A stretch of DNA of 64,000 nucleotides from Erwinia sp. HDF1-3R (GTDB lineage: Bacteria > Pseudomonadota > Gammaproteobacteria > Enterobacterales > Enterobacteriaceae), in contig NZ_CP155071.1 of NCBI RefSeq assembly GCF_039621855.1, positions 930,001-994,000 of the forward strand, written 5' to 3'. The notes below the pieces were generated by a model that saw only the letters and a list, made by a program, of their open reading frames with translations, searched no databases and had not been told where the DNA came from. Position 1 is the stretch's first letter. Each line of letters begins with the position of its first letter. The position numbers and the translations under genes are program-made. Below, piece after piece: positions 12,566 to 58,483 of the stretch.

Positions 12566-13333
12566 ATGGAAGCCTGGCTGCAACACCTTGTTACGCAATC
12601 ACTGGCCTTTTCGCTATTGGCTATTGGGGTGATCACCTTTTTCGAGTCGCTGGCGCTGGTCGGCCTGCTGCTACCCGGCACGGTCCTGATGGCTTCCTTT
12701 GGCGCGCTGATTGGCAGCGGACAGATTGGGCTGTATCCCGCCTGGGCAGTCGGCACGTTGGGCTGCCTGATTGGCGACTGGATTTCGTATCTGATTGGCT
12801 GGCAGTTTAAGGGGCCGCTGCATCGCTGGTCGTTTATCAAAAGGCATCAGAAAATGATGGATAAAACCGAACATGCGCTGCATCAGCACAGTATGTTCAC
12901 CATCATTGTGGGGCGCTTCGTGGGGCCGACGCGGCCGCTGATCCCGCTGGTGGCCGGCATGCTTGAACTGCCGGTTAAGAAGTTTATCCCGCCGAATATC
13001 ATTGGCTGCGTGCTGTGGCCGCCGCTCTATCTGCTGCCGGGTATCCTCGCGGGGGTGGCGATTGACGTTCCTAAAGACGCCAGCAGCGGCAGCTTTAAAT
13101 GGCTGCTGCTGGCGGTTGCAGTGGTGGTCTGGCTGGGCTGCTGGCTGGGATGGCGCTGGATGCGATCGAAAAAGCAGTCCGACTGGGCAACACCCTGGCT
13201 GCCCGCATCCCGCCTGCGCTGGCTGGCACCGCTGATGCTGCTGCTTGCCGTCGCCAGCTTTACCGCTATCCAGTTCCACCCGATGATGCCGGTTTTCCGC
13301 CATCTGCTGTGGCACGTGTTTATCGGCGGCTGA
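12566..13333 (+). CDS. yabI: DedA-family inner-membrane protein (YabI)
   Basis: DedA proteins are membrane transporters implicated in undecaprenyl-phosphate or phospholipid recycling and in envelope homeostasis. The family block LPGTVLMASFGALIGSG and the core motif FVGRFVGPTRPLIPLVAGM are both present and closely match E. coli YabI. I chose the ATG at 12566 (MEAWLQHL...), which aligns with the YabI start, over an in-frame upstream codon at 12557; this gives 255 residues. The last codons and the stop are the first copy of a 38-bp tandem repeat that runs into the intergenic space. It lies just downstream of the thiBPQ operon and converges with it, as in E. coli. Confidence 0.95.
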   Translation: MEAWLQHLVTQSLAFSLLAIGVITFFESLALVGLLLPGTVLMASFGALIGSGQIGLYPAWAVGTLGCLIGDWISYLIGWQFKGPLHRWSFIKRHQKMMDKTEHALHQHSMFTIIVGRFVGPTRPLIPLVAGMLELPVKKFIPPNIIGCVLWPPLYLLPGILAGVAIDVPKDASSGSFKWLLLAVAVVVWLGCWLGWRWMRSKKQSDWATPWLPASRLRWLAPLMLLLAVASFTAIQFHPMMPVFRHLLWHVFIGG

Positions 13334-13457
13334 GTGTGATACCGCTGTGGCACGTGTTTATCGGCGGCTGAGTGTGATGTCGCTGTGGCACGCGTTTATC
13401 GGCGGATGAAGGTGATACCGCTGCGGCAGGGCGTTATTAGTGGCTGAGGGAGATGTC
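13306..13457 (+). repeat. 38-bp tandem repeat built from the 3' end of yabI
   Basis: Four units with period exactly 38 start at 13306, 13344, 13382 and 13420 (marked by GCTGTGGCAC or GCTGCGGCAG). The first unit is the yabI 3' coding end with its TGA. The second is nearly identical, the third has several changes, and the fourth is clearly decayed. Because 38 is not a multiple of 3, the copied C-terminal peptide WHVFIGG cycles through frames downstream. This looks like slippage or unequal crossing-over at the gene end. Confidence 0.93.
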
Positions 13458-13475
13458 GGCATTTCCGGCATCCCG

Positions 13476-16733: not shown

Positions 16734-16785
16734 TTTGCGTTCCTTAACAGGTTAGGGGGTCGCAAAGGATCTGAGCGGGAGAATA

Positions 16786-16903
16786 CTCTCAAATCCCTAC
16801 GCCGGTACAAGCCGGATCAGGTTCGACGGGTCTGTCTCAGCGAAAAAAAACGGCTGCGCGAGCAGCGTGATAAGAGCGTGGTTTTTCGCACCCCGTTGAG
16901 AAC
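16786..16903 (-). ncRNA. Thiamine pyrophosphate (THI-box) riboswitch
   Basis: On the minus strand the conserved core is read in order: GGGGTGC, then after a variable arm CGCTGAGA, then GAACCTGATCCGGCTTGTAC and GCGTAGGGA. These are the invariant THI-element blocks that form the TPP pocket. The P1 helix closes with CTCAA near 16899 and TTGAG near 16789. The variable P3-side arm is long and includes a run of eight Ts. It sits between the putative promoter and thiB, so it most likely blocks thiB translation when TPP binds. Confidence 0.96.
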
Positions 16904-16908
16904 GGACT

Positions 16909-20714: not shown

Positions 20715-22154
20715 TTAAGGTAATAACTGCATTGGGATGGTAGCGGTTGCCGCCGAGTCGGGCAGGTCGCGAATATCGGCAAAGTGACCCGCTACCGCTG
20801 CCGCTGCCGCCATGGCCGGACTCAGGAGGTGCGTCCGCCCCCCGCGGCCCTGACGCCCTTCGAAGTTACGATTACTGGTAGAGGCGCAGCGTTCGCCGGG
20901 GCTGAGGCGGTCGTTATTCATCGCCAGACACATCGAACAGCCGGGCAGGCGCCACTCGAAACCGGCAGCCAGAAAAATTTTATCCAGTCCCTCGGCCTCG
21001 GCCCGTTCCTTCACCGGTCCGGATCCGGGGACGACATAGCCCTGTACGCCCGGCGCAATTTTATGACCTTTCACCACCGCGGCCGCCGCGCGCAGATCCT
21101 CAATACGAGAATTGGTGCAGGAACCGATAAAAACCTTATCAATACGCACGTCGCTCAGGCGGATGCCGGGCTTGAGGTCCATATAGGCCAGCGCTTTTTC
21201 CGCCGATGCGCGCTCGATGGGATCGCTAAACGTCGCCGGATCCGGGATGCATTCATTTACGGCAATCACCTGGCCCGGATTGGTTCCCCATGTTACCTGG
21301 GGGGCGATATCCGCCGCGTTGATCGTGACCACCTTGTCGAACGCCACGCCCGGGTCGCTTTTCAGCGTGCGCCAGTAGCTGATGGCCGCGTCCCACTGCT
21401 GTTCATCCGGCGCAAACTGGCGCCCTTTGACGTAGCGAAAGGTGGTTTCATCCGGTGCGACCAGGCCTGCTTTAGCACCCAGCTCAATAGCCATATTACA
21501 CAGCGTCATACGGCCTTCCATGCTGAGCCGCTCAACCGCCTCACCGCAGAACTCCACCACGTGTCCGTTACCGCCGCCGCTGCCGGTTTTGCCAATAATG
21601 GCCAGCGCAATATCCTTCGCGGTAATGCCCGGCGGTGTCTCACCGATCACTTCAATTTTCATTGTCCTGGCGCGCGCCTGCTTCAGCGTTTGCGTCGCCA
21701 GTACATGCTCGACTTCCGAGGTGCCAATACCAAATGCCAGCGCGCCAAAGGCCCCGTGCGTCGAAGTGTGCGAGTCGCCGCAGACAATGGTCATACCCGG
21801 CAGAGACATGCCCTGTTCAGGCCCGATAACGTGAACGATGCCCTGGAAGGGGTGATTCAGGTCGTACAGCCGGACGCCAAATTCATTACAGTTTTTGACC
21901 AGCATCGACATCTGAATACGGGCCATTTCGCCGCTGGCATTAATGTCCCGCGTCTGGGTGGAGACATTATGATCCATTGTCGCAAACGTTTTTGTTGGCT
22001 GGCGGACGGGCCGGCCATGGGCGCGCAGCCCATCAAAGGCCTGCGCGGACGTCACCTCATGCACAAGATGGCGATCAATATAGAGCAGCGGCGTTTCATC
22101 AGGCGCGTCGTACACAACGTGCGCATCAAACAGCTTTTCATAGAGTGTTTTCAT
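20715..22154 (-). CDS. leuC: 3-isopropylmalate dehydratase large subunit LeuC
   Basis: LeuC is the aconitase-type large subunit holding the [4Fe-4S] cluster. The cluster cysteines are visible in GSCTNSR and in the CSMC pair of [13 protein letters not shown]; substrate-site blocks include [20 protein letters not shown]. The core aligns end to end with the 466-residue E. coli protein. A tail of about 15 residues (after [22 protein letters not shown]) extends beyond it, giving 479 residues. The start is 3 bases from the leuB stop, so coupling is tight. High certainty. Confidence 0.97.
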
Positions 22155-22156
22155 CG

Positions 22157-24813
<2,657 letters not shown>

Positions 24814-24857
24814 CGGATAATTCCTTGTCGAATTTGTTTTGCCGTTACTGCGGGCAT

Positions 24858-24889
24858 AAAAAAACCCGCGCTGCGGCGCGGGTTTTTTA
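24858..24889 (-). terminator. leu operon attenuator terminator
   Basis: On the minus strand CCCGCG...CGCGGG forms a GC-rich hairpin (24865-24882) flanked upstream by As and followed by a T-run (the A-run 24858-24864 on the plus strand). It lies between leuL and leuA, in the position of the leucine attenuator. Stalling on the leuL leucine codons would prevent it from forming. Confidence 0.92.
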
Positions 24890-24904
24890 AGTCTGAAGTG
24901 TGAA

Positions 24905-24988
24905 TCAGTGATTGATTCCGCCCACCAGGCTACCGCGCAATAAGGATGCGTTTAGTAGTAGACCGAGTAGGCGGGTTGAATAAATCAT
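24905..24988 (-). CDS. leuL: leu operon leader peptide LeuL
   Basis: A 27-codon frame reads [20 protein letters not shown] and ends LVGGINH. Eight codons are leucine; four are CTA, a rare codon in enterics, including three in a row, which would stall ribosomes when charged Leu-tRNA is scarce. The GLLLNAS block matches E. coli LeuL. An attenuator terminator follows about 16 bases after the stop, then leuA. This gene is too short for standard gene finders but the context makes it secure. Confidence 0.93.
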
Positions 24989-25023
24989 TGAATCAGACCT
25001 CAATAAATTGTGCTGTTGCTTTA

Positions 25024-25053
25024 TTGATACTTGATCGGCGGGGGAGATGTCAA
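25024..25053 (-). promoter_or_regulatory. leuLABCD promoter
   Basis: On the minus strand a perfect TTGACA (25053-25048) is followed after 18 bases by TATCAA (25029-25024), about 35 bases before the leuL ATG. The strong -35 and weak -10 resemble the known leu promoter of enterics. Confidence 0.7.
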
Positions 25054-25158
25054 CCCGGGATCTGAAATAACAGCGTAAAGGCTGGGGGGAAATATTCTGT
25101 CTGCGAGGATATTCGCAGAATAAATGGCAAACTGGTGAAACGCGGTATCTGCGGTGTT

Positions 25159-25328
25159 GGTGGGCAATCCTGGTGGTTGTCGGTTGGTTGTTAGGGCTGC
25201 CATAGCTGCGGTGTCGGTGGATAATTCCAGCGGTGACGGTGGGTTATGCTGGCTGCAATTTCTGCTGTGCCGGTGGATAATCCCAGCGTTTGCCGGTTAG
25301 TTGTTAGGGCTGCCATAGCTGCCGTGTC
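25159..25328. repeat. 57-bp tandem repeat, three units, 5' of element A
   Basis: Units start at 25159, 25216 and 25272 (spacing 57, 56, 57 to the next start at 25329). Each begins with GGTGGRYAATYC, the 5' arm of the adjacent element. It continues with a spacer containing GGTTGGTTGTTAGGGCTGCC or a relative and ends near TGCNGTGYC. The second unit is the most diverged. The fourth start, at 25329, is the first base of element A itself, so the array is a run of arm-plus-spacer copies leading into A. Confidence 0.9.
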
Positions 25329-25533
25329 GGTGGACAATCCCTGCGGTTGCCGGGCGTCCTCGCGCCAGGCTCTGCCTGGTGCCTTTGGCTCCGACTCCGG
25401 GCCGGACGGCCCGGTCGCGAGCGGGCATCCCTGCCCGCCGCTCCCTGAGTGCAGCATCCCTGCTGCCCTCGCCTGGCCCTCCGTCTGCGCCGCAGCGCTG
25501 CGGAATGCCCGTCAACCGCAGGGATTGTCCCCC
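25329..25533 (+). repeat. Structured repeat element A (205 bp, inverted-arm family)
   Basis: The ends are complementary over about 27 bases with two mismatches: GGTGGACAATCCCTGCGG at the left, its complement at 25516-25533. Inside are four further hairpins. They are CCAGGC-TCT-GCCTGG (25365-25379), CCGGGCC-GGAC-GGCCCGG (25397-25414), GCGGGC-ATCCCT-GCCCGC (25421-25438) and GCAGC-ATCCCT-GCTGC (25451-25466). A perfect palindrome CCGCAGCGCTGCGG lies at 25490-25503. The frames open through it are a by-product of high GC. Copy B is about 85-90 percent identical and the same length. Confidence 0.88.
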
Positions 25534-25714
25534 TCTCGGGCTTCTGAGTTGCTTTCAGTGAACCCGTTTATCTGGCCGCAGCTATCTGATCGACTTCCAG
25601 TTAAACGCTGTTCGTGCGCAGGCTTTTGAGCCGCTTTAAGTTAACAACGTCGATTTTTGGTGCCACCCATTAGCGCCCTGCTATGTGGCTGGCGAGCCGC
25701 AATATCCGTTATTT
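25534..25714. other. Spacer between repeat elements A and B
   Basis: This 181-base stretch has no plausible gene. Its first 25 bases (CTCTCGGGCTTCTGAGTTGC and on) are shared with the 25 bases after element B, so the duplicated unit extends past the right arm. The remainder is unique sequence of ordinary composition with no recognised feature. Confidence 0.7.
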
Positions 25715-25771
25715 CGCGGACAATCCCAGCGTTTGCCGGTTAGTTGTTTGGGCTGCCATAGCTGCGGTGCC
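25715..25771. repeat. Single 57-bp arm-plus-spacer unit 5' of element B
   Basis: One unit of the 57-bp repeat (CGCGGACAATCCCAGCG, then GGTTAGTTGTTTGGGCTGCC) directly precedes element B, exactly 57 bases before B's first base. It mirrors the three-unit run before element A. Confidence 0.88.
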
Positions 25772-25976
25772 GGTGGATAATCCCAGCGTTTGCCGGGCGT
25801 CGCAGCTACAGGCTCTGCCTGGTGCCTTTGGCTCCGACGCCAGGCCGGACGGCCCGGTCGCGAGCGGGCATCCCTGCCCGCCACTCCCTGAGTGCCGCGT
25901 CCCTGCTGCCCTCGCCTGGCCTTCCGTCTGCGCCGCAGCGCTGCGGAATGCCCGTTAACCGCTGGGATTATCCACC
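25772..25976 (+). repeat. Structured repeat element B (205 bp, inverted-arm family)
   Basis: It has the same length and layout as element A. The left arm GGTGGATAATCCCAGCG pairs with CGCTGGGATTATCCACC at 25960-25976. Relative to A, two positions in the arm have changed on both sides so that pairing is kept (C/G to T/A and T/A to A/T). The GCGGGC-ATCCCT-GCCCGC hairpin is intact at 25864-25881. The second ATCCCT-type hairpin is degraded (loop GTCCCT, one stem mismatch), and the GGCC hairpin also has a mismatch. About 25 bases after the element are shared with the flank of A. Confidence 0.88.
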
Positions 25977-26027
25977 TCTCTGGCTTTTAAGTTGCTTTTA
26001 CCGCAGCCTGCACAATGCAATAAGCAG

Positions 26028-26225
26028 GCGGGTGGGGCCCGGTGACAGGCATTCCGCAGCGCTGAGCGTAGAGAGGAAGACCCGGATGGGCCAGCAGGGA
26101 TGCTGGCCCAAGGGCATGCCGGGACAGGGATGTCCCGTCATGCCCGGTCCGAAAGGTCGACGAGCGGAGCGAAGGAACCGCGCCACGCGCGGCGCGAGGA
26201 CCGCCAGGCACCGGGCCCCACCCGC
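26028..26225 (-). repeat. Structured repeat element C (198 bp, inverted orientation)
   Basis: Perfect 17-base inverted ends GCGGGTGGGGCCCGGTG (26028-26044) and its complement (26209-26225) bound the element. Read on the minus strand it follows the order of A and B. A TCCTCGCGCC block comes first. A hairpin CGGGAC-ATCCCT-GTCCCG (26137-26120) is next, enclosed by GGGCATG/CATGCCC. Then come GGGCCAGC-ATCCCT-GCTGGCCC (26109-26088) and CAGCGCTGCGGAATGCC. The arms share no obvious sequence with those of A and B, yet are self-complementary. Confidence 0.87.
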
Positions 26226-26631
26226 AGGCGACTCCCCAGGCCTGTGCCGCACCGGGCCCCACCCGCAGGCGACTCCCCAGGCCTGTGCCGCACCGGGCCC
26301 CACCCGCAGGCGACTCCCCAGGCCTGTGCCGCACCGGGCCCCACCCGCAGGCGACTCCCCAGGCCTGTGCCGCACCGGGCCCCACCCGCAGGCGACTCCC
26401 CAGGCCTGTGCCGCACCGGGCCCCACCCGCAGGCGACTCCCCAGGCCTGTGCCGCACCGGGCCCCACCCGCAGGCGACTCCCCATACCTGTGCCGCACCG
26501 GGCCCCACCCGTAGGCGACACCTCCAGCTTTTGCAGCACCGGGCCCCACTCGTTGGCGACCACACGGGCCTGTGCCGCACCGGCCCCCACCCGCAGACGA
26601 CGCCCCCGGCCTTTGCCGCACCGGGCCCCAC
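26209..26631. repeat. 41-bp tandem repeat, ten units, at the end of element C
   Basis: Counting by the CCCGCAGGCG mark, units start at 26221, 26262, 26303, 26344, 26385, 26426, 26467, 26508, 26549 and 26590. The first six are identical, the seventh has two changes, and the last three are increasingly diverged, with the tenth partly re-converging. Each unit holds the 17-base arm of element C plus a 24-base spacer. Because 41 is not a multiple of 3, long open frames on both strands simply cycle the same sequence through all frames. They are not evidence of protein coding. There are no spacers of differing sequence, so it is not CRISPR. Confidence 0.95.
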
Positions 26632-27157
26632 ATTTTACAAAGAGCGATAAACCAGTAGTAAAGGAATAACTTATGGTTAAGGCGCAGTGAAAATAACTAC
26701 CTTTCAGGTGGAATATTTTGTAGAGATAAAATTAAAAAGCAGATAAAACTATAAAGAACGGAGGGTTTGAACAAGACGGCTTTTATTTTGCAACGATTGC
26801 AGATAACAACAAAACGATCGCTCTGAAATTAAAGTCATCGGCAGCGTAAACCACTTTCTTTTAACCCTGACTCCGGTTTAATTAACGTTAGCAACCGCCT
26901 GAAAGCAGTGGGCCAGGGGGAAGATATCCCCTCCGTAATTGGCGTGCTATTTGCCTGCTTACTTTTCTACGGTTATGGTACTTCAACCAATTAAAAGCAA
27001 AATAATAAGGGCTTCGCCCTGTACCCTGGATTTTGGAAATGCATTCCAATGTCTGAGCATAAACACAGGTATTGAGCTTATCCGGCAGGAATGTGAAGTA
27101 TTACCGCTCACGCATACAGCCTGCCGAAAGCTCAGTACCTTAAGCCTGGAGGCAAAA
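26632..27157. other. AT-rich leader region upstream of ilvI
   Basis: This 526-base stretch turns sharply AT-rich after the GC-rich array. No gene is seen in it. The ilvI reading frame happens to stay open back to 26939, but that part has no family resemblance. In E. coli the ilvIH promoter lies in a long AT-rich leader with several Lrp sites; this region is the right place for them, but I cannot delimit sites by eye. No trace of leuO is recognised. Confidence 0.6.
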
Positions 27158-28882
27158 ATGGAGATGTTGTCAGGAGCCGAGATGGTCGTTCGATCGCTGA
27201 TCGACCAGGGCGTTAAACATGTTTTCGGCTATCCCGGCGGCGCGGTGCTGGATATCTATGATGCGCTGCAAACCGTGGGTGGCATTGACCATATCCTGGT
27301 TCGCCACGAACAGGGCGCGGTGCATATGGCCGACGGCTACGCCCGCTCGACCGGCGAAGTTGGCGTGGTGCTGGTTACCTCCGGCCCCGGCGCAACGAAT
27401 GCGATAACCGGTATCGCCACCGCCTATATGGACTCGATCCCGATGGTGGTGCTCTCGGGCCAGGTACCTTCTTCCCTGATCGGCTATGACGCCTTCCAGG
27501 AGTGCGACATGGTCGGTATCTCCCGCCCGGTGGTCAAACACAGCTTTATGGTTAAGCGCGCCGAAGATATTCCCACGGTGATGAAAAAAGCCTTCTGGCT
27601 GGCAGCCAGCGGACGCCCGGGCCCGGTGGTCGTCGACCTGCCAAAAGATATGATGAGTCCGGCCAATAAGCTGCCCTATGCCTGGCCTGACGCCGTTAGC
27701 ATGCGATCCTACAGTCCGACTACGCAGGGCCATAAGGGGCAGATCAAACGCGCCCTGCAAACGCTGCTGGCCGCTAAGCAACCGGTCATTTATGCCGGTG
27801 GTGGCGTAATCAACGCTGAATGTCATGATGAACTCAGGCAAATAGCGGAAACGCTCAACCTGCCGGTTACCGCGTCGCTGATGGGCCTGGGGGCGTTCCC
27901 CGGCACCCATCGCCAGAGCCTGGGCATGCTGGGCATGCACGGTACCTATGAAGCGAACATGACAATGCACAACGCTGACGTTATTTTCGCCGTCGGCGTG
28001 CGCTTTGACGATCGCACCACCAATAACCTGGCTAAATATTGCCCGAATGCCACCGTGCTGCATATTGATATCGATCCGACGTCAATTTCCAAGACCGTGG
28101 CGGCAGATGTGCCGATCGTCGGCGATGCGAAGCAGGTTCTGGCGCAGATCATCGAGCTGTTAAACGCGGGTGACAACAGCCAAAACTTCGACAGCCTGCG
28201 CGACTGGTGGCAGAAAATTGACCAGTGGCGTGCCCGCCAGTGTCTTGAGTTTGATCGCAGCAGCCCGGCCATCAAGCCGCAGGCGGTTATCGAAACCATC
28301 TGGAAGCTGACGCGAGGCGAGGCCTATGTCACCTCTGATGTGGGTCAGCACCAGATGTTTGCCGCGCTCTACTATCCGTTCGACAAACCCCGCCGCTGGA
28401 TCAACTCCGGTGGTCTGGGCACGATGGGCTTTGGCCTGCCTGCCGCGCTGGGCGTCAAGCTGGCGCTGCCGCAGGAAACGGTTATCTGCGTCACCGGCGA
28501 TGGCAGTATCCAGATGAATATCCAGGAATTATCCACCGCGCTACAGTACGATCTGCCGGTGCTGGTGCTCAGCCTGAACAACCGCTTCCTGGGAATGGTT
28601 AAACAGTGGCAGGACATGGTCTATTCCGGTCGCCACTCACAGTCCTATATGCAATCGCTGCCCGACTTTGTGCGCCTGGCTGAGGCTTATGGCCACGTTG
28701 GCATTGGCATTGAGCATCCTGAGGAGCTGGAGTCAAAACTGACCGAGGCGCTGGAGCAGGTCGGGAAAGGTCGCCTGGTCTTTGTGGACGTCAAAATAGA
28801 TGATACCGAACACGTTTACCCGATGCATATTCGCGGCGGTGGGATGGATGAAATGTGGCTGAGCAAAACGGAGAGGACATAA
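27158..28882 (+). CDS. ilvI: Acetolactate synthase III large subunit IlvI
   Basis: IlvI is the catalytic, thiamine pyrophosphate-dependent subunit that makes acetolactate or acetohydroxybutyrate for valine, leucine and isoleucine. The ATG at 27158 follows TGGAGG and gives [18 protein letters not shown] and 574 residues, the E. coli start and length. The ThDP glutamate lies in [15 protein letters not shown], and the ThDP-binding [12 protein letters not shown] is in the C-terminal domain. ilvH follows after two bases. Expression is probably Lrp-controlled by analogy. Confidence 0.98.
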
Positions 28883-28884
28883 TT

Positions 28885-29376
28885 ATGCGTCGTGTGTTAT
28901 CGGTACTGCTGGAAAACGAGTCCGGCGCATTATCCCGCGTGGTAGGGCTTTTTTCTCAGCGCGGTTATAACATCGAAAGTCTGACGGTCGCCCCGACGGA
29001 CGATCCCACGCTGTCGCGCATGACCATTCAAACGGTCGGCGATGAAAAGGTTCTGGAGCAGATTGAAAAGCAGCTGCACAAGCTGGTGGATGTACTGCGG
29101 GTCAGCGAACTGGGGCAGGGCGCCTTCGTTGAGCGCGAAATCATGCTGGTGAAACTTCAGGCCACCGGCTACGGGCGTGAAGAGGTGAGACGCAGCGCGG
29201 AAATCTTTCGTGGGCAGATCGTTGACGTGACGCCCTCGCTTTATACGGTTCAGCTGGCGGGTACCAGCGAGAAGCTGGATGCCTTTCTCAGCGCGGTACG
29301 CGACGTAGCGGAAATTGTTGAAGTGGTGCGTTCCGGCGTCGTTGGCGTGGCGCGCGGCGAGCGGATTATGCGTTAA
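28885..29376 (+). CDS. ilvH: Acetolactate synthase III regulatory subunit IlvH
   Basis: IlvH binds IlvI, raises its activity and confers valine feedback inhibition. The ATG at 28885 ([20 protein letters not shown]) lies two bases past the ilvI stop and gives 163 residues, exactly the E. coli length. Frames starting at 28855 inside ilvI are not needed. An N-terminal ACT domain (about residues 1-78) and a C-terminal ALS small-subunit domain are evident. An intrinsic terminator follows. Confidence 0.97.
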
Positions 29377-29406
29377 TTTTTCTGCGAGCAGAGTGAAAAT
29401 CGAGCT

Positions 29407-29432
29407 AACCCGGCGTAACGCCGGGTTTTTTA
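29407..29432 (+). terminator. Terminator after ilvIH
   Basis: AACCCGGCG and CGCCGGGTT form a strong stem with a very short loop, followed by a run of Ts. It lies about 30 bases past the ilvH stop. Confidence 0.9.
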
Positions 29433-29483
29433 TTTTGTCTGAAAGCGATTGCCTGAGGCTAAAAGCGGTTGCTCGCTGAACTA

Positions 29484-29513
29484 TTCTGCTGTTAGATGTA
29501 ACAAAGTTATAAT
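29484..29513 (+). promoter_or_regulatory. Candidate cra promoter
   Basis: A perfect TATAAT at 29508-29513 lies 59 bases before the cra start codon. The best -35 (TTCTGC, 18 bases upstream) is weak. Prediction only. Confidence 0.45.
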
Positions 29514-29572
29514 CCATAGCTGCGTTGTGGCTATTATCTGCGCCCTGACGGTGCCTGAAGTGTGGAGTTATT

Positions 29573-30583
29573 GTGAAACTGGATGAAATTGCGCGCCTGG
29601 CTGGTGTTTCCCGGACGACGGCCAGCTACGTTATTAACGGTAAAGCGAAGCAGTATCGTGTCAGTGATAAAACCGTTGAGAAGGTTATGGCGGTGGTACG
29701 AGAGCATAATTACCACCCGAATGCCGTTGCGGCAGGCCTGCGCGCCGGAAGGACGCGCTCCATTGGGCTGGTGATCCCCGATCTGGAAAACACCAGCTAC
29801 ACCCGCATCGCGAACTATCTTGAACGCCAGGCGCGTCAGCGCGGCTATCAGCTGCTGATTGCCTGTTCTGAGGATCAGCCGGATAACGAAATGCGCTGCG
29901 TTGAACATCTGCTTCAACGGCAGGTCGATGCCATTATCGTTTCCACCTCGTTACCGCCCGAGCACCCCTTCTATCAGCGCTGGAAAAACGATCCGCTGCC
30001 GATTATTGCGCTGGATCGCGCGCTGGATCGTGAGCATTTCACCAGCGTGGTAGGGGCCGATCAGGATGATGCGGAAATGCTGGCGGCTGAACTGCGCAAG
30101 CAGCCGGTAGAGAAGGTGCTTTATCTGGGCGCACTGCCAGAGCTGTCGGTCAGTTTTCTGCGTGAACTGGGCTTTCGTGATGCCTGGGAAGGAGACGCGC
30201 GTCAGCCAGACTTTATCTACGCCAACAGTTTTGAACGCAGCGCGGCGGCCGCCCTGTTTGAAAACTGGCTGGAAACGCACCCGATGCCGGATGCGCTGTT
30301 CACGACCTCGTTTGGGCTGTTACAGGGTGTGATGGATGTCACCCTCAAGCGTGAAGGTCGCCTGCCGACGGATTTAGTGATCGCCACCTTTGGCGACCAC
30401 GAGCTGCTGGACTTCCTTGAGTGTCCGGTACTGGCTGTCGCTCAGCGGCACCGGGACGTGGCGGAGCGCGTACTGGAGCTGGTGCTGGCAAGCCTGGATG
30501 AACCCCGTAAACCGAAGCCGGGATTAACCCGTATTCGTCGAAATCTTTATCGCCGCGGGCGTTTGAGCCGTAACCTGGTTTAG
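29573..30583 (+). CDS. cra: Catabolite repressor/activator Cra (FruR)
   Basis: Cra is a LacI-family regulator that represses glycolytic and activates gluconeogenic genes, released from DNA by fructose phosphates. The start is a GTG at 29573 (reading [20 protein letters not shown]), as in E. coli, preceded by TGGAG. Residues 1-58 hold the LacI-type helix-turn-helix and hinge ([19 protein letters not shown]). The rest is the periplasmic-binding-protein-like effector domain. Length is 336 residues, and the first 130 are almost identical to E. coli. A terminator follows within 10 bases. Confidence 0.98.
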
Positions 30584-58273: not shown

Positions 58274-58329
58274 GGTTTATCTGCTCGCCTTAGCCGTATT
58301 TTACGTTCACTCACGTCCTACGCCCTACG

Positions 58330-58483
58330 CCCCACGTCTTACGCCCCACGTCTTACGCTCCATTCCTTACACCCCATGCCTTACACCTCACGCCTCATGC
58401 TCCATGCCTTACACCCCATGCCTTACACCTCACGCCTCATGCTCCATGCCTTACACCCCACACTATATGCCTCACACCCATGC
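58330..58483. repeat. 14-bp tandem repeat, eleven units, between guaC and hofC
   Basis: Eleven consecutive 14-base units follow the pattern CCYCAYGCCTTACA (for example CCCCACGTCTTACG at 58330 and 58344, CCCCATGCCTTACA at 58372 and 58414). Three of them form a 42-bp higher-order unit, at 58358-58399 and 58400-58441, with a partial third. The plus strand is very poor in G and rich in C, T and A. The array fills the convergent space between guaC and hofC; the rest of that space holds the hairpin at 58243. Frames through it are artefacts of periodicity. Confidence 0.94.

Follow-up and report, generated by a model that had tools for sequence, protein, structure and literature searches.

Three inverted-repeat elements between leuL and ilvI

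The window analysed here, a stretch of 64,000 nucleotides from Erwinia sp. HDF1-3R (contig NZ_CP155071.1, positions 930,001 to 994,000), carries between the divergent genes leuL and ilvI three inverted-repeat elements of about 200 nt, A, B and C, which have their internal hairpins in common (Table 1). The coordinates of the original prediction are correct, and the perfect complementarity that it noted over 17 bases of the C arms was reproduced; the arms of A and B match at 25 and 24 of 27 positions, respectively. Its description of the differences between the A and B arms holds for positions 7 and 14 (counted from the outer end), which are altered on both arms, but leaves out three more that are one-sided, at positions 3 and 21 on one arm and 18 on the other. 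In single-strand folds, the folding energies of B and C lie far below those of shuffled sequences (z −8.4 and −9.3). Two alternative 3' core ends occur among the subtype-1 copies of this genome, exemplified by GCGCGAGGAC in A (25356-25369) and TAGCTGCGAC in B (25799-25812); by eye, both could pair with one and the same 5' core segment, each in its own register.

Table 1. Features of the leuL-ilvI locus (window coordinates; R1, covariance model of the core)
Feature	Position	Strand	Score or remark
Segment with no BLAST match in the leu-ilvI spacers of relatives	25037..26949	.	
57-bp tandem array beyond A	25149..25353	-	units contain copies of the A 3' arm; the A arm is the last in-phase unit
Element A (subtype 1), arm-core-arm	25329..25533	- (RNA sense)	R1 126.6 bits
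A, 3' arm of RNA	25329..25355	-	
A, 5' arm of RNA	25507..25533	-	
Single 57-bp-type unit directly beyond the B 3' arm	25716..25771	-	
Element B (subtype 1)	25772..25976	- (RNA sense)	R1 105.2 bits
B, 3' arm of RNA	25772..25798	-	
B, 5' arm of RNA	25950..25976	-	
51-bp spacer from 5' end of B to 5' end of C (head-to-head junction)	25977..26027	.	
Element C (subtype 2), head to head with B	26028..26225	+ (RNA sense)	R1 136.4 bits
Part of C matching Rfam RF01731 (TwoAYGGAY)	26084..26150	+	61.8 bits (cut-off 43), model positions 46-112 of 168
C, first GGA-loop hairpin	26088..26109	+	GGA at 26098-26100
C, second GGA-loop hairpin	26112..26145	+	GGA at 26128-26130
41-bp tandem array beyond C	26208..26631	+	units contain the C 3' arm; the arm of C itself is the first unit

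The leu-ilvI spacer measures about 1.9 kb here and 230-488 bp in six same-genus genomes that align on both sides; seven genomes of the genus with leuA were compared, and the seventh aligns on one side only. Three features of the locus and its genome had been overlooked: the recurrence of the arms in adjacent tandem arrays, the presence of about 100 copies in the genome and the Rfam match within C. Across the arm arrays of the genome, a weak sign of polar growth is seen for subtype 1, with a mean mismatch of 0.14 at unit 1 (33 arrays) and 0.29 at unit 4 (4 arrays), and no clear trend for subtype 2. Elsewhere, the window contains an array of about four 38-bp units (13306-13458) with no visible kinship to the arm arrays, a C-rich array of 14-bp/42-bp units (58320-58470) and a match to the TPP riboswitch (16776-16905, minus strand, 68.2 bits).

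A covarying core with invariant GGA loops

The cores of the elements were compared in an alignment (A1) of 35 arm-free sequences, drawn from this genome and three others of the genus, which is also the basis of the covariance model R1. Paired cells make up 90.7% of this alignment, as opposed to 72.0% after shuffling; double-change cells number 241 (81.3 shuffled), at least one double change is found in 26 of the 42 core pairs (20.3 shuffled), and the covariation score is 0.423 (0.121 shuffled). While the stems covary in this way, all 35 cores keep an unchanged GGA in both loops. In the wider set from the genome of the window (G000) and its same-genus relative G013, counted without the G000 elements whose arms are shorter than 14 nt, at least two GGA-loop hairpins are present in 221 of 227 elements (27 of 227 when shuffled), with two or three per copy in 206.

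The base of the arms has a regular feature of its own: mismatches in G013 cluster 7-9 nt before the core motif (41/119, 51/120 and 43/120 elements), the commonest being A-G or G-A. The core helices of that genome contain 24 G-U and only 9 A-C cells. The proposal that these elements are under selection for folding is thus backed by the covariation of the core, for which maintenance by selection on an RNA fold is the most likely explanation.

Kinship with TwoAYGGAY and with the CsrB clan

Element C matches Rfam family RF01731 over 67 of the 168 model positions, above the gathering cut-off, and RF01731 belongs to the same Rfam clan as CsrB (CL00106). TwoAYGGAY was listed in 2010 by Weinberg and colleagues as a probable RNA with probably no cis-regulatory role (PMC2864571); Gardner and Eldai (2014) proposed from motif matches that it binds CsrA, and remarked on a tandem G-A in one of its stems (PMC4333381). 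Neither the statement that no named repeat family has this layout nor the label of an undescribed system can therefore be upheld, since the core had already been described as TwoAYGGAY, by way of C and its homologues.

The other elements are linked to the family less directly. No match of A or B to RF01731 is obtained even at E values up to 1, nor do three Pantoea loci (L257, L266 and L272) match at the cut-off, the latter matching R1 at 84-111 bits. On the other hand, the RF01731 cut-off is passed by six of ten loci with R1 homologues, over the full model in L105, L108 and L129, as well as by six G013 elements in L181 and L205; among these are subtype-1 relatives (L205, 1320-1388 and 7356-7461). 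Through R1 and these passing subtype-1 relatives, A and B are homologues of members rather than formal members of RF01731.

Like TwoAYGGAY, the elements have two adjacent GGA-loop hairpins closed by common stems; unlike TwoAYGGAY as described in these sources, they occur in about 100 copies per genome, as two head-to-head subtypes, with a long hypervariable basal helix, arrays and mobile units. High-copy or mobile TwoAYGGAY is not described in the open-access titles and abstract openings that were searched, and what is new is the high copy number, the two near-obligate head-to-head subtypes, the hypervariable self-complementary arms and the Pantoea mobile unit. With CsrB/CsrC and RsmX/Y/Z the elements have GGA in hairpin loops in common, and with CsrB the clan, but they are short, dispersed repeats that usually offer two or three such hairpins each. 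Replacement of csrB by the repeats was considered and rejected, csrB being present in all 22 same-genus genomes searched; a sponge based on the repeats would therefore add to a resident system. One genome (G003) has three matches above the CsrB cut-off.

Copy number and distribution

R1 finds 102 matches in G000 and 143 in G013, of which 99 and 132, respectively, score at least 97 bits; by BLAST, the former genome contains at least 40 full-length copies of the A/B type and at least 40 of the C type. A search with a covariance model made from the repeats was thus followed by the predicted outcome of many copies with covarying arms. In a sample of 60 relatives, R1 matches 17 genomes, of which 16 (G000 included) belong to the genus; matches extend to 43 of 394 genomes (16 of 114 genera) in a sample of the order and to 10 of 369 in a sample of the class. 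Only 7-51 candidates were scored per genome in these two large samples, which makes the copy numbers in them minimum values; the R1 E-values are rough. Several R1 matches each were observed in G584, G694 and G787, genomes of 2.4-2.5 Mb from family f184 of the same class, one pair in G584 being apparently head to head. As for a phage origin, neither C nor L129 matches the phage collection; L129 also has no match in the E. coli collection.

Several classes of dispersed repeat resemble these elements in part. REP/BIME sequences are intergenic palindromes, often clustered, and retron-like and REP/RAYT-like elements have, in outline, complementary arms around a structured core. This likeness raises the idea that the arms are used in reverse transcription or by a Y1 transposase, and reverse-transcriptase domains are matched four times in genome G006 and once in genome G011; none, however, is matched in G000 or G013, and Y1 transposase domains are absent from the matches of G000, G006 and G011, with a single 24-bit match (cut-off 23) in G013. 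Such a role is highly improbable overall, and for the genome of the window it is close to refuted. The elements resemble REP/BIME as intergenic palindromes, but differ in their host genome having no Y1 transposase domain and in having units of about 200 nt whose internal fold is conserved. They are also short, dispersed and intergenic like the enterobacterial repeats ERIC/RU-1, RU-2 and RU-3, which differ from them in their described sizes of 127, 168 and 103 bp (PMC2759123) and are set apart here by descriptions alone.

Two subtypes arranged head to head

The cores split into subtype 1 (A and B) and subtype 2 (C), both of which also occur in relatives; the labels are motif-based and were given to 128 of 133 R1 matches, the five weakest being left out. 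At 25 of 29 G000 loci, counted without elements whose arms are shorter than 14 nt, all copies of one subtype lie on the left on the minus strand and all copies of the other on the right on the plus strand, the exceptions being L149, L153, L161 and L171. In G013, where 129 elements were found by motif among the 143 model matches and subtypes were reassigned for this count by alignment to references, 47 of the 48 divergent pairs of neighbouring elements consist of one copy of each subtype, with spacers of 41 to 1318 bp. All six complete units from Pantoea likewise have one R1 match per strand, head to head. The spacers between the paired subtypes are unconserved. Complementarity between the subtype-1 and subtype-2 arms of the same locus was considered and rejected: among 47 G013 pairs the mean score is 5.22 for the same and 5.35 for different loci, and 15922 of 20000 permutations score at least as high.

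The orientation of the flanking genes was taken from a rough gene model based on open frames. By this measure, convergent genes flank 19 of the 29 G000 loci, as against 9 of the 91 remaining pairs of neighbours within those stretches; the corresponding G013 count, made without a background and with L183 left out, is 25 of 56 clusters. The window locus, lying between divergent genes, is an exception. A location between convergent genes is what would be expected of transcription terminators or 3'-end stabilisers that replace an interrupted terminator. This is a rather improbable account of the elements, since their conservation lies in the GGA loops and internal motifs, no T-run follows the arms, and a terminator scan of the window gives 3 matches where 2.3 are expected; the divergent genes at the window locus also speak against it.

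Hypervariable but self-complementary outer arms

Whereas the cores are conserved, the outer arms of G013 are nearly all different, with 56 distinct 5' arms among 61 subtype-1 elements and 68 among 68 of subtype 2. Each arm nevertheless matches its own partner. Over 24 positions, own and swapped partners match on average at 21.15 and 12.96 positions in subtype 1 and at 20.44 and 12.44 in subtype 2, figures in which the location of arms by maximal complementarity favours the own-partner score and swapped partners were permitted to shift in register by 4. Among the close-kin copies of G000, counted without elements whose arms are 18 nt or shorter, own and swapped arms differ little (20.96 versus 20.01 and 19.64 versus 18.36).

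Arm complementarity could be the product of ordinary compensatory selection on RNA, with no copying of one arm onto the other. The covariation of the core is in line with such selection, as is the excess of G-U over A-C cells in the inner arms of G013 (36 versus 17) and in the arms of G000 (64 versus 15 in outer and 10 versus 2 in inner arms, again without arms of 18 nt or less, and representing few independent changes among close kin); for these two sets, RNA-level selection is favoured. The outer arms of G013 behave differently: 2037 of their 2174 cells are Watson-Crick, and G-U (30) and A-C (37) are about equally frequent, with no sign of a strand preference. Moreover, in 32 orthologue pairs from G006, G011 and G013, 483 of 544 arm positions are unchanged and 19 have changed on both sides yet remain paired, where simple arithmetic on the same counts gives about one by chance; differences on a single side comprise 13 G-U, 15 A-C and 12 other mismatches. 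This tally is based on BLAST, not all of its pairs are independent, and 10 more were skipped for a differing or weak register; it supersedes a stricter one of five usable pairs, with 5 A-C, 3 G-U and 1 other difference and zero coupled changes.

The absence of a G-U bias in the G013 outer arms, together with the coupled changes between orthologues, favours copying at the level of DNA there, so that the mechanism put forward in the original prediction, by which one arm is copied onto the other, gains ground for these arms and loses it for those of G000 with their G-U excess. Selection alone is accordingly a possible but unlikely explanation of arm complementarity. That DNA-level copying keeps the outer arms complementary while the core behaves like an RNA is suggested, though not proven, by these counts.

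Mobile units in Pantoea

On plasmids of Pantoea agglomerans, the head-to-head pair sits in a discrete unit of 557-567 bp whose 18-bp terminal inverted repeats resemble those of IS4 from E. coli K-12, one unit end being identical to an E. coli IS4 end. Repeats of this type are found at both ends of the units in L264, L265, L266 and L272, and in L257, L258 and L269 only the right end is intact. The flanking duplications are longest in L266 (12 bp) and L265 (11 bp), with 9 identical bp in L272 and 7 in L264; IS4 itself is flanked in E. coli K-12 by one of 12 bp.

Filled and empty versions exist of two insertion sites. At the first, between genes for an ABC substrate-binding protein and an MFS protein, the best 60 of 68 records comprise 9 full sites (98-100% query cover), 2 that are partly deleted, 12 that span only 1018 bp and 14 with nudI instead; a base-by-base comparison shows filled sites in L257 and L269 and empty ones in L262 and L263. 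At the second, between MCP and ugpC, the best 60 of 63 records include 10 full and 9 partial sites and 10 that span about 630 bp, with L272 filled and both L275 and L276 (P. vagans) empty. The empty sites and the IS4 stretch have no R1 match, while L258, L268 and L278 retain one element and L279 a fragment. In L268, L278 and L279 it is subtype 2 that has been deleted from the unit, with end points that lie, by eye, in or beside arms. In L277 (P. agglomerans L15 plasmid, ~310-450) and, judged by span, in a dozen other records, the MCP-ugpC site holds another insert, of about 90 bp.

In Pantoea, the pair has thus been inserted by a transposition-type event. These units share terminal repeats, target duplications and empty sites with IS4-type MITEs, but are unusual in that their cargo is a pair of predicted structured RNAs. 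The empty MCP-ugpC site in L275 is a terminator-like hairpin on both strands, and by eye the flanks in L264, L265 and L266 look like split terminators and a hairpin with a T-run lies just inside the left end of the unit. These details would suit the replacement of terminators discussed above; against it, the hairpin at the left end is missing from the terminator scan of L272, and the empty ABC-MFS site, again by eye, is devoid of a hairpin of that kind.

The picture is different in Erwinia. No IS4-type end, allowing up to 4 mismatches, was found in window positions 22001-30000, and among 86 stretches from the window, G000, G006, G011 and G013, 15 contain one isolated 4-mismatch match and none a pair; in G013, no conserved sequence is visible outside the arms among the matches listed. 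The Erwinia-type copies are therefore without a demonstrated mobility signal, and mobility of the window copies, by a mechanism comparable to that in Pantoea, is inferred. The notion of a mobile element is in this way borne out for the Pantoea units by their ends, duplications and empty sites, and not for the window locus, where no such ends were found. At 4 of 30 G000 loci (counting L177 with its weak match), both flanks are shared with an element-bearing locus among 56 stretches from relatives; the flanks included in these stretches are short, mostly about 1.2 kb. Derivation of the arms from the target site was also considered and is unlikely, since within each subtype nearly all G000 copies, whatever their site, belong to a single arm family; variants of these families occur in L153 and L161.

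Regulatory RNA or selfish DNA

The pair could also be purely selfish, the cargo or internal sequence of a miniature transposon whose fold serves the DNA, as hairpins or cruciforms in transposition or as a tolerated insertion. The Pantoea unit with its terminal repeats, the G013 outer arms, the losses of subtype 2 and the spacers devoid of a consensus promoter would all be compatible with this. What it accounts for poorly are the features pointing to RNA, namely the surplus of G-U in the core helices, the unchanging GGA of both loops, the G-A mismatches at a fixed place near the base of the arms and the kinship with the CsrB clan; in addition, most members of another family have only 1-3 matches per genome (7 candidates scored in each). 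On balance, selfish DNA is an improbable reading, though less so than that of terminators.

It is instead fairly probable that A, B and C represent a mobile head-to-head pair of CsrA-binding RNAs of the TwoAYGGAY type; the family kinship and the mobility in Pantoea can be held with more confidence than this reading as a whole, and CsrA binding in vivo, as predicted from the motif, has about an even chance. The two-subtype pair would spread as DNA, carried by mobile units that are small and non-autonomous, and would settle in intergenic spaces, often those of convergent genes, where copies may be transcribed by read-through from the flanking genes. Each transcribed copy would then offer at least two GGA-loop hairpins that bind and titrate CsrA or, in an alternative role, would place a CsrA site on a read-through 3' end. 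Selection at the RNA level would keep the fold of the core; the outer arms would probably be kept complementary by arm-to-arm copying during replication, through template switching in the inverted repeat, with or without added selection. Expression is uncertain, as no consensus promoter is listed in the B-C spacer or in L272 from Pantoea; two promoter-like sites in the window stretch (0.5 expected) lie in or beside the 57-bp units and read antisense to A and B.

A more far-reaching view would be that of an undescribed class of mobile regulatory element, in which CsrA-binding RNAs always come as a head-to-head pair. The pair would reach more than 100 copies per genome and be carried in Pantoea by an IS4-type MITE able to insert into terminators, and its hypervariable arms would be matched by DNA-level copying so that each copy is a distinct self-complementary hairpin. 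We put this forward tentatively, as a combination that is rather less likely than its alternatives taken together. If it is true, genomes with many copies would constitute a dispersed, heritable CsrA sponge. The arms, for their part, amount to hundreds of inverted repeats at one structural position and offer a natural test of compensatory selection on RNA versus template-switch correction. TwoAYGGAY has so far been without a known function; its strain-polymorphic mobile relatives make both that function and the effect on the Csr network testable, and natural strains that differ by single insertions provide a direct comparison.
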